Shown piece after piece: positions 9,346-25,240 of a stretch of 64,000 nucleotides of DNA. Origin of the DNA: Atopobacter sp. AH10 (GTDB taxonomy: Bacteria; Bacillota; Bacilli; Lactobacillales; Aerococcaceae); assembly GCF_003664595.1 (NCBI RefSeq), contig NZ_QXPZ01000002.1:1-64000 (forward strand). The letters are read 5' to 3'. Below the pieces are notes generated by a model. The model was not told where the DNA came from and ran no database searches. It saw only the letters and a list, made by a program, of their open reading frames with translations. Numbering within the stretch: position 1 is the first letter of the stretch; every line of letters starts with the position of its first letter. A program made the translations under genes and the position numbers.

Positions 9346-9397
9346 TTCTTGACCTTCCTCGTAAAAAGTGAAAAAATAGGAAGCAAGTAAATCACTA

Positions 9398-9490
9398 TAA
9401 GGGAATGAATGTCTCCCTCAGTTTCAACTGAAACCGCATAAGAATGCTGATGACTTCTACAAGCTTATTTGGCTTGTAGAAGTTTTTTGT
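9398..9490 (+). promoter_or_regulatory. fluoride riboswitch (crcB motif) with terminator platform
   Basis: Three hallmarks of the fluoride aptamer are present in order. First is a GGGA...UCCC stem (9401-9417) whose loop GAAUGUC can pair with the later GACUUC to form the pseudoknot. Second is AAACCGCAU-AAGA-AUGC. Third is CUGAUGACUUCUAC (9447-9460). The last segment is also the first arm of a perfect 12-bp terminator hairpin (9453-9464 with 9472-9483) followed by TTTTTTG. Ligand binding would sequester that segment and let transcription proceed. An extra small hairpin (UCAGUU/AACUGA) is inserted between the first two parts. The downstream gene is a cation:proton antiporter. Confirmation would be a covariance-model hit to the Rfam fluoride family. 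Confidence 0.85.
9453..9490 (+). terminator. riboswitch-controlled terminator
   Basis: ACTTCTACAAGC and GCTTGTAGAAGT form a perfect stem around a seven-base loop, followed by a T-run. The left arm overlaps the conserved 3' end of the fluoride aptamer. Confidence 0.9.
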
Positions 9491-21384: not shown

Positions 21385-21714
21385 TATTCGTCTGCCCTCC
21401 CTAGGCTTAAGCCATCCATTCTATTCACTATATTTTTCTCTCTTGAAAATTTTGTTCGCTGAAATGTCAATTTTCCAGGTAATTATAAACACATTTTGTT
21501 TTGACGACTATCCGTCATTCTTTCCATTATTAGAAATTAATGCGTCAGTTCGAAAATAAGTCAAAGTCTATCTTCGCCCCTTATCTAGCTTTCCTGATAA
21601 AAAGGCGATCATCTCCATTTTACTGACTTTTTAGCAAAAAATCGAGTCCCTTAAAAAATTAAGCTGATTTTTTATCCTAGTTTTAACCAGCCCTAATCGG
21701 CTACCCCTTACTAG

Positions 21715-21816
21715 AGATTAATCCTCTATCCTTAAGTTAGGACACTAAAACTAGTGTAAAAGTCCTATTGCAAGAGCTAAAGATTAATCCTCTATCCTTC
21801 AGTTACGACACTAAAA
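21715..21816. repeat. 36-bp direct repeat, 66-bp period
   Basis: AGATTAATCCTCTATCCTT starts at 21715 and at 21781, and each is followed by MAGTTASGACACTAAAA. They lie in the 551-base gap 21385-21935, which also holds one dispersed 17-bp motif and the metY terminator and no clear gene. Confidence 0.85.
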
Positions 21817-21853
21817 GGGAGGAGTTTATATATGCCTTGTGCCAGCAAGGATA

Positions 21854-21935: not shown

Positions 21936-23222
21936 TTAGGCTTTGGCAGCTTTAAAACCTTTTTCTAGGTCATTGAGAATATCATCAATATGCTCTGTTC
22001 CAATAGAAAGTCGAATGGTGTTTTCTTTAATCCCTTGATCCGCCAATTCTTCTTCGGTCAATTGTGAGTGAGTAGTGGTCGCTGGGTGGATAACTAAACT
22101 CTTGACATCCGCAACATTAGCCAATAAGGAGAATATTTCTAAAGCATCAATAAATTTCCAAGCTTCTTCTTTTCCTCCCTTAATTTCAAAAGTAAAAATA
22201 CTTGCCCCACCATTAGGGAAATATTTCGTATATAAATCATGATCTGGGTGATCTTTTAAGCTAGGGTGGTTCACCGCTTCTACTTGAGGGTGATTAGCCA
22301 AAAATTCTACTACTTTCTTGGTATTTTCCGCATGTCGGTCTAAACGTAAGGATAATGTTTCAGTTCCTTGAAGGAGTAAGAAAGCATTGAATGGAGAAAT
22401 AGTCGCTCCAGTATCACGGAGAAGAATCGCCCGAACATAAGTGGCAAAAGCAGCAGGTCCTACAGCGTCAGCAAATGATATGCCATGATAAGATGGGTTA
22501 GCTTCAGCGATTGGGGCATATTTGCCAGAAGCTTTCCAATCAAATTTACCTGAATCAACAATCACACCACCTAGAGTCGTCCCGTGACCCCCAATAAATT
22601 TAGTAGCAGAATGCACCACGATATCAGCCCCATGTTCGATTGGGCGAATGAGATAAGGGGTTCCAAAGGTATTGTCAATGACTAATGGCAAGCCATGTTT
22701 ATGAGCTATTTTGGCAATGGCATCAATATCCGGAATATCTGAATTAGGATTCCCTAAAGTTTCCAAATAAACAGCTTTCGTGTTTTCTTGAATAGCTTCT
22801 TCTAACTCCTTGAGATTATGAGCATCTACAAAGGTTGTCTTGATACCATAATTAGGTAAAGTGTGCGCTAACAAGTTATATGAACCACCATAAATTGTCT
22901 TTTGAGCGACAATGTGGTCCCCTTCTTGAGCTAGAGCTTGAATGGTATAACTAATAGCAGCCGCACCTGAAGCAACAGCTAAAGCTGCAACCCCACCTTC
23001 TAATGCTGCAATACGTTTTTCAAAGACGTCTTGAGTAGAATTCGTCAAACGTCCATAGATATTCCCTGGATCAGCAAGACCAAAGCGAGCTGCTGCATGT
23101 TCAGAGTTGCGGAAGACATATGAAGTTGTTTGATAAATTGGCACCGCTCTGGCGTCAGAAGCTGGATCTGCTTGTTCTTGACCAACATGTAATTGCAATG
23201 TTTCAAATTTATATTCACTCAT
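21936..23222 (-). CDS. metY: O-acetylhomoserine sulfhydrylase (aminocarboxypropyltransferase)
   Basis: This PLP enzyme joins O-acetylhomoserine with sulfide (or methanethiol) to give homocysteine (or methionine). The 428-residue length and the long insertion around residues 220-280 are typical of the MetY branch of the Cys/Met metabolism family and longer than cystathionine synthases or lyases. The PLP lysine is Lys208 in VVHSATKFIGGHG; YGRLTNSTQ and GNPNSDIPD are family landmarks. The gene has a strong promoter and a 340-base leader containing a small Cys/Met-containing ORF and a terminator, so expression is probably attenuation-controlled by sulfur amino acid supply. It is monocistronic. 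Confidence 0.93.
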   Translation of the reverse strand: MSEYKFETLQLHVGQEQADPASDARAVPIYQTTSYVFRNSEHAAARFGLADPGNIYGRLTNSTQDVFEKRIAALEGGVAALAVASGAAAISYTIQALAQEGDHIVAQKTIYGGSYNLLAHTLPNYGIKTTFVDAHNLKELEEAIQENTKAVYLETLGNPNSDIPDIDAIAKIAHKHGLPLVIDNTFGTPYLIRPIEHGADIVVHSATKFIGGHGTTLGGVIVDSGKFDWKASGKYAPIAEANPSYHGISFADAVGPAAFATYVRAILLRDTGATISPFNAFLLLQGTETLSLRLDRHAENTKKVVEFLANHPQVEAVNHPSLKDHPDHDLYTKYFPNGGASIFTFEIKGGKEEAWKFIDALEIFSLLANVADVKSLVIHPATTTHSQLTEEELADQGIKENTIRLSIGTEHIDDILNDLEKGFKAAKA

Positions 23223-23297: not shown

Positions 23298-23564
23298 AAA
23301 AAAACCGGCAGCTAACTTTTAGCTCCCGGGCAAATGACTTTAAACTATACTTATGCGATTTATTTTGTTACTCAAATAAACCTAATAAAGCATGGTCTCT
23401 AGGCGAACAGTCATGCTTCATCAGGTGCACGACTACAAGCCCAGTCATATTATATGCCCGGGAGCTACGCATTCGTTGACACATGACACATTGTACAGAA
23501 CGTGTTAGATCTAATGAAGTCATTCTTCTCGCCTCTCTTCTCTTTAATAATGTGTTCTAATTTA
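23298..23564 (-). promoter_or_regulatory. metY leader: candidate attenuator or riboswitch
   Basis: The leader ends in a terminator hairpin (CCGG..GCTAA at 23305-23315 with TTAGC..CCGG at 23319-23329, then seven T). The 5' arm of that hairpin overlaps a 13-base segment (23320-23332) perfectly complementary to 23455-23467 further upstream. The two foldings exclude each other, so the upstream pairing is an antiterminator. A second hairpin (AAGCATG/CATGCTT) lies between them. The upstream arm is inside a 51-codon ORF just after Cys12, Met14, Cys15 and Met18 codons. No S-box or T-box consensus is seen. Confidence 0.65.
23368..23523 (-). CDS. candidate Cys/Met-containing leader peptide of metY
   Basis: The ORF starts with ATG, with AGAGG about eight bases upstream, 40 bases after the predicted transcript start, and ends in TAA. 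The 51-residue product starts MTSLDLTRSVQCVMCQRMRS and has three Cys and five Met, clustered at positions 12-18. Serine-arginine-alanine codons 20-23 form one arm of the 13-bp antiterminator. A ribosome stalled on the Cys/Met cluster would leave that arm free and so favour metY expression. The ORF continues about 28 codons beyond, which is unusual for leader peptides, so the peptide may instead be incidental or functional in its own right. Confidence 0.4.
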   Translation of the reverse strand: MTSLDLTRSVQCVMCQRMRSSRAYNMTGLVVVHLMKHDCSPRDHALLGLFE

Positions 23565-23570
23565 AATATG

Positions 23571-23599
23571 ATGATAGCAAGTATCAGAACTATTGTCAA
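23571..23599 (-). promoter_or_regulatory. metY promoter
   Basis: TTGACA (23594-23599) and TATCAT (23571-23576) are 17 bases apart on the minus strand, a near-consensus sigma-A promoter starting transcription near 23564. Confidence 0.75.
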
Positions 23600-23738: not shown

Positions 23739-23760
23739 CATCAACTAGAAAATTTATATA

Positions 23761-24122
23761 TGGAGTCGGCGGGAGTCGAACCCGCGTCCAACTATAACGG
23801 TATACCCGAATCTACAATTATAGTTTCCAGATTAGTTTAGCTTGGAAATAGCTCTGGTAACCCGCATCGATCCAAGCGAGCCTGGTCGTCTCTTCTTGAT
23901 CTAACAGGCGGATAGATCAAGCGTAGCCCACTTATATAGGACCCGGTGACAACACATGGGCAATGCTGGCCGGATCTTAGCTACTACGTTGTTTACGCAG
24001 CGAATGCTAAAGTGTTTGTATTTTCTTTGTCAGTTATATTTAACTGTTAACGATTTTACGTTTTCGTCAAAACGAATTGCATCGAATCACCGACTTATAC
24101 CTGTCGAATCCGTAACGACCCC
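23761..24122 (-). ncRNA. ssrA: tmRNA
   Basis: The 362-base RNA starts GGGGTCGTTACGGATTCGAC and ends with a T-arm (GCGGGTTCGACTCCCGC) and an acceptor strand CGACTCC that pairs with the 5' end, which is the tRNA-like domain charged with alanine. The encoded tag reads DKENTNTLAFAA before TAA, so it would be (A)DKENTNTLAFAA. The 3' CCA is not encoded. Together with SmpB it rescues ribosomes stalled on broken messages. A strong promoter lies just upstream, and smpB, rnr and secG are neighbours, an arrangement common in Gram-positive bacteria. Confidence 0.97.
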
Positions 24123-25010: not shown

Positions 25011-25240
25011 TTCTTCCATCTGGTTGATTTTTCTTCCATCTAGCTTCTTGCTTTTCCATCTAGCCACTTGCTTTTCCATCTAGCCACTTATTCTTCCATC
25101 TAGCCACTTATTCTTCCATTTGGTCGCTTATTTTCCACCTAGCTGATTATTCTTCCATTTGGTCGCTTATTCTTCCACCTAGCTGATTATTCTTTCATCT
25201 GGATGAGTACTCTTTCGTATGTTTGCTTATTCTCCCATCG
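25011..25240. repeat. tandem array of a ~20-bp unit
   Basis: About eleven copies of a unit such as TTCCATCTAGCCACTTATTC run through the gap 24984-25342 between the histidine phosphatase and smpB. Copies differ by point changes (CATCTAGC, CATTTGGTC, CACCTAGCTG). Nothing else is seen in this gap. Confidence 0.85.

Follow-up and report, generated by a model that had tools for sequence, protein, structure and literature searches.

A probable ribosome-mediated attenuator with Cys/Met control codons in the metY leader of Atopobacter sp. AH10 and in distant Bacillota

The metY locus and the parts of its leader

The window (the whole analysed stretch of 64,000 nucleotides) carries metY, encoding an O-acetylhomoserine/O-acetylserine sulfhydrylase, on the minus strand at 21936..23222 (TIGR01326, 633 bits vs. 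a cut-off of 495), and all parts of the leader of this putatively regulated gene lie on the same strand. A sigma-70 type promoter was located by consensus scan at 23571..23599 (TTGACA-N17-TATCAT with TG before the −10, 11 of 12 matches), which agrees with the near-consensus promoter of the first-pass annotation of this DNA. The Shine-Dalgarno (SD) region AGGCGAGAAG at 23525..23534 is complementary to an anti-SD segment (CTGTTCGCCT, 23401..23410) and precedes a leader peptide ORF of 51 codons (MTSLDLTRSVQCVMCQRMRSSRAYNMTG..., 23368..23523). Cys12, Met14, Cys15 and Met18 of this ORF were found as previously described, and belong to the putative control codons Cys12 Val13 Met14 Cys15 Gln16 Arg17 (CGA) Met18 at 23470..23490.

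Still within the ORF lies the 5′ arm of a helix termed P1 (TAGCTCCCGGGCA, 23455..23467), the candidate antiterminator, which pairs over 13 bp with the 3′ arm TGCCCGGGAGCTA at 23320..23332; this perfect complementarity had been given correctly before, as had every coordinate of the earlier description. The adjoining helix P1b is formed by ATGAC (23444..23448) and GTCAT (23334..23338). The P1 3′ arm is common to P1 and to an intrinsic terminator (CCGGGAGCTAAAAGTTAGCTGCCGG followed by 7 T, 23298..23329), and antiterminator and terminator were mutually exclusive in the pairing and folding analysis because of this one arm. A terminator reusing 23320–23332, as proposed earlier, is thus real, with the correction that its stem (CCGG-G-AGCTAA/TTAGCT-G-CCGG + 7 T, −14.6 kcal/mol) carries one G.G mismatch; it was absent from the output of a simple consensus terminator scan. 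Folding of the whole leader was stronger than that of dinucleotide shuffles (z = −3.85, none of 200 shuffles as good).

The leader region was searched for known RNA families with covariance models. At gathering thresholds no Rfam family was found in it, SAM classes included, and a relaxed scan (E ≤ 10) gave one irrelevant match (E = 7.7). Neither a Stem I specifier loop nor an antiterminator of the T-box (RF00230) was detected in the leader at gathering thresholds or at E ≤ 10, and the same T-box search returned 21 matches elsewhere in the window's genome. The reported absence of S-box and T-box elements was hence borne out at both thresholds, and the proposed search for riboswitch families left nothing relevant.

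Several other features were recorded in the window and genome. A tmRNA gene (23758–24122, minus strand, Rfam scan) immediately precedes the metY promoter, and an imperfect direct repeat, ATTAATCCTCTATCCTT[A/C]AGTTA[G/C]GACACTAAAA, lies downstream of metY at 21710–21820. A fluoride riboswitch (RF01734, 38.9 bits vs. a cut-off of 34) is located at 9392–9466 on the plus strand, and a 20-bp unit, TTCTTCCATCTAGCCGCTTA, is tandemly repeated about ten times around the 5′ end of a phosphoglycerate-mutase-like ORF (25011–25200). The recurring sequence ATGTGTCAACTCATT was seen on five contigs of the same genome (e.g., C11:120537, C18:9950, C37:245) and is possibly part of a mobile element.

Relatives of the leader and their conserved features

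A DNA search (60 relatives) retrieved a diverged second copy in the window's own genome. A covariance model built from these two sequences found nothing beyond them in 76 genomes of the family, 395 of the order and 399 of the class, and identified clear copies in the distant Bacillota genomes G1083, G1103 and G995. A five-sequence model matched nine genomes (G1083 included) among 291 from the class that contains G1083, and ten further copies were recovered in eight further genomes, while the 35 genomes searched in the order of G1103 yielded G1103 and G995 only. Weak matches in G098 and G934 were rejected, their alignments being without P1. When 84,980 species were scanned for the exact pattern of an inner segment, five matches were obtained, none fitting the model; in hindsight, the scan was unproductive because that segment is not conserved. 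Searches of plasmids and viral contigs gave no copies of the leader, and no leader-peptide family for it was found in NCBIfam. The analysed set thus comprised 15 copies, of which the window's genome contributed two and 12 distant Bacillota genomes the other 13. The leader comparison in relatives suggested in the first-pass annotation did reveal codon conservation, albeit in distant Bacillota and not in the leader's own family. With 14 relatives bearing the conserved leader, 13 of them in distant genomes, a chance origin is ruled out.

Although the covariance models contain zero gene information, each of the 13 distant copies is followed by a sulfur amino-acid gene or a corresponding transporter gene. 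Downstream of the leader are metY in L092, L093, L097, L103 and L105, a metQ-like lipoprotein gene in L098 and L100 as well as, assigned by visible similarity, in L099, L101 and L102, a PLP enzyme of the cystathionine gamma-synthase/lyase (CGS/CGL) type in L104, and in L096 only the C-terminal part of cysK (L096 1535–1876, profile positions 192–298 of 298), which may be a partial or broken gene. The second copy of the window's genome precedes an operon that encodes a pair of polar amino-acid permeases together with an ATPase and a binding protein, to which 2yjp and 1xt8 were nearest (232 bits; next best 125 bits). Both entries are L-cysteine-binding proteins, from Neisseria gonorrhoeae and Campylobacter jejuni. 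The leader of L091 precedes a cysteine-type ABC permease that is 65% identical to the permease of this operon.

Judged by conservation, an ORF with SD and ATG is present in 15/15 copies. The three codons before CGA-AUG specify Cys or Met at 42 of 45 positions (Cys 27, Met 15), compared with 5 of 134 residues in the preceding peptide parts, and Cys occurs in the core of every copy. Core peptides read C-V-M-C-Q-R-M in the window, C-M-C-Q-R-M in the second copy, and CCCRM, CCCCRM, MMCCRM, MMCRM, MCMRM and similar in the distant copies. Core codons show Cys/Met swaps (TGT to ATG) as well as synonymous TGT/TGC changes; as the interchange needs several base changes and both Cys codons are used, selection appears to act on the residues. 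The codon before CGA in the window copy is Gln instead of Cys, which counts against the model. In 15/15 copies, 5 nt separate CGA-AUG from the P1 arm. Of the six Arg codons, CGA alone is used for the Arg that precedes the final core Met in all 15 copies. This count is partly selected for, as copies were anchored on CGAATG, and CGA, at 20 of 147 Arg codons in seven window ORFs, is no particularly rare codon there. Continuation of the ORF far beyond the control point, noted earlier for the window copy, was true of 14/15 copies (arm-to-stop distance 27–84 nt) and is hence a family property. The leader ORF of L097 has a stop codon immediately after CCRMR, and the RNA beyond still encodes the conserved distal peptide. 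The leader ORFs of L098–L102 and L105 (one distant family) end in Arg-Cys-stop, a possible second Cys checkpoint.

The 10-bp core of P1 is fully paired in 14 copies and at 9/10 positions in one. In alignment A4, which was fitted to the same structure and is hence favourable to it, P1/P1b were 98.2% paired, two-sided changes were present at four pairs (seven such cells; 0/500 shuffles), and the covariation score exceeded that of all 500 shuffles. Slid versions of P1/P1b dropped to a paired fraction of 21–49%. Compensatory changes in the stems, which had been named as a check, are therefore found in both P1 and the adjoining P1b. The region enclosed by P1 spans 62–122 nt and is not conserved among distant copies, with no shared core.

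Furthermore, the SD of each leader is complementary to the leader's own segment downstream of P1b. The summed score over the 15 copies was 308, whereas SD swaps between copies gave 251 ± 13 (0/1000 reaching 308, which is not a formal probability as the copies are related) and shuffled anti-SD targets 224 ± 10 (0/1000). Examples are GAGGCGAATAGC:GCTGTTCGCCTC in the second own-genome copy and GAGGTACGGACA:TGTCCGCACCTC, with one mismatch, in L105. The segment probably limits re-initiation on the leader; a comparable self-inhibition was reported for the E. coli trp leader.

Proposed switch and rival readings

The metY leader is interpreted as a ribosome-mediated transcription attenuator that would sense cysteine, and perhaps secondarily methionine, via decoding of its leader peptide (rough probability 0.87); the peptide-attenuation reading of the first-pass annotation is backed by codon-level conservation together with compensatory changes. 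Provided that the ORF is translated, as we infer, a shortage of Cys-tRNA, the presumed signal, would cause the ribosome to stall on the Cys/Met codons that immediately precede P1. The front of the ribosome would then halt at the P1 5′ arm, leaving this arm to pair with the 3′ arm, and the P1 so formed would block the terminator, such that metY is transcribed. With ample Cys-tRNA, the ribosome would advance onto the 5′ arm, the 3′ arm would pair with the downstream strand instead, and the resulting terminator would end transcription at about 23298, given a timing that holds P1 open after the ribosome has passed.

The switch point was simulated by folding each leader with a 31-nt ribosome footprint at every codon. 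With the A site on Cys codons, P1 formed in 11/15 copies, including both of the window's genome, and in the same copies the terminator formed from codon 0 or +1 to about +11. For L092, L097, L104 and L105, the equilibrium model gave no P1 preference with the ribosome on Cys codons. Past about codon +13, P1 re-formed at equilibrium in most copies; hence, a fed cell would need timing, following ribosomes or slow formation of P1, and this kinetic step, by which the modelled terminator would hold, is the model's weakest point. An arm5:J2 anti-antiterminator taken from minimum-energy folds was discarded, having no statistical backing (124/1000 shuffles).

The main alternative of the first-pass annotation had been a ligand-sensing RNA with the 13-bp helix as its closing stem, and a new riboswitch, in which the P1-enclosed domain binds a sulfur metabolite and thereby stabilises P1, would fit the strong folding of the leader, the covariation of P1, and the segments conserved in the P1 loop of the two own-genome copies. 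An aptamer was considered on the basis of these two copies and dropped after the distant copies had been found: an enclosed domain of 62–122 nt without a conserved core makes an aptamer unlikely, and it is the Cys/Met codons and the SD upstream that are conserved instead. Moreover, a ligand-stabilised P1 would switch the gene on in the presence of the ligand, which would be unexpected of genes that supply cysteine/methionine, except if a precursor were the ligand. We therefore regard a riboswitch as very improbable. Still less credence is given to a degenerate or novel T-box-like leader that binds tRNA and is not translated. The leader does occupy the position of the T-box of its relatives, but no match at any threshold and no T-box sequence were found, and the conserved SD and ATG as well as the codon-level conservation indicate translation.

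A closer competitor is a leader-peptide attenuator that responds to methionyl-tRNA instead of cysteinyl-tRNA, or to the two alike. In the core, Met ranks second to Cys in frequency (15/45) and is interchangeable with it, several targets of the leader are metY or metQ-like, and orthologs in the window's family carry T-boxes that are apparently Met-specific. Set against this, Cys is found in 15/15 cores, L092 and L093 (CCC/CCCC) have no Met just upstream of CGA, and T-boxes whose specifier reads, by eye, as ATG are retained in the own genome before metA and metN/metQ-like genes, next to which a second Met sensor would be redundant. This reading is consequently considered rather unlikely. The ubiquity of Cys in the cores, the two Cys-only copies and the own-genome T-boxes favour cysteine as the main signal of the proposed attenuator, with Met as a possible co-signal.

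Origin of the leader, comparison with known systems and significance

In the window's family, a T-box scoring above the Rfam cut-off was present at 15 of the 20 metY loci scanned, with an apparent ATG specifier where read by eye, and at 2 of 13 ABC loci. As family orthologs of metY are mostly under T-box control, the leader device replaces a starvation sensor. The Met-type T-box (RF00230) shares with the metY leader the gene, the position and starvation-induced antitermination; it differs in being a tRNA-binding RNA without a leader peptide and is not homologous. The window's metY is 77–85% identical to leader-bearing metYs of distant families, compared with 52–63% to metYs of its own family, and all leader-bearing metYs, the window's included, fall on one side of a 100/100 branch in the tree. 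Horizontal transfer of metY together with its leader, probably with acquisition here, is the simplest reading. tmRNA genes are common integration sites, and the one adjoining the metY promoter fits such an acquisition.

Control of sulfur amino-acid genes in Bacillota is generally attributed to T-boxes, SAM riboswitches and transcription factors. For Leu/Ile, leader peptides have been described or predicted in this phylum (Leu-rich in S. aureus ilv; predicted for ilv of L. lactis/Streptococcus; PMC5794164), and so have His leaders in Bacilli, Eubacteriales and Erysipelotrichales (PMC2965389, PMC9413887). The metY leader resembles these in that control codons (there translated) adjoin alternative antiterminator/terminator helices and in that a T-box is replaced at some genes, and differs from them in its Cys/Met codons, the long ORF past the control point, its own anti-SD and an unrelated peptide. 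Outside Bacillota, the uORFC-8-2 motif upstream of cysS in Rhodobacterales is likewise a predicted Cys-codon leader peptide (tandem Cys near codons 14–15) with an intrinsic terminator (PMC8632094); by its published description it is set apart by its occurrence in Alphaproteobacteria, its restriction to cysS, and Cys codons inside the first stem, whereas those of the metY leader lie upstream of P1. The cys operons of mycobacteria and further Actinobacteria also have leader peptides with Cys codons before Cys genes (PMC1262725), but these codons are near the stop codon and a conserved intrinsic terminator is absent. A literature search that covered few subscription journals found no Cys/Met leader peptide for Bacillota, so a prior description is possible. 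That the leader represents an undescribed Bacillota family, which would read Cys and Met codons jointly, be kept at about one ribosome per transcript by its anti-SD, and move between classes with metY in replacement of a T-box, is considered somewhat probable.

A Cys/Met leader-peptide attenuator conserved across several families would be an additional RNA strategy in Bacillota and a direct handle on cysteine sensing. How translation of the leader is restricted can be tested through its covarying anti-SD segment, and the metY leader would document a transfer in which a gene brought along the RNA sensor that controls it, the recipient family being one in which this gene mostly has a T-box.
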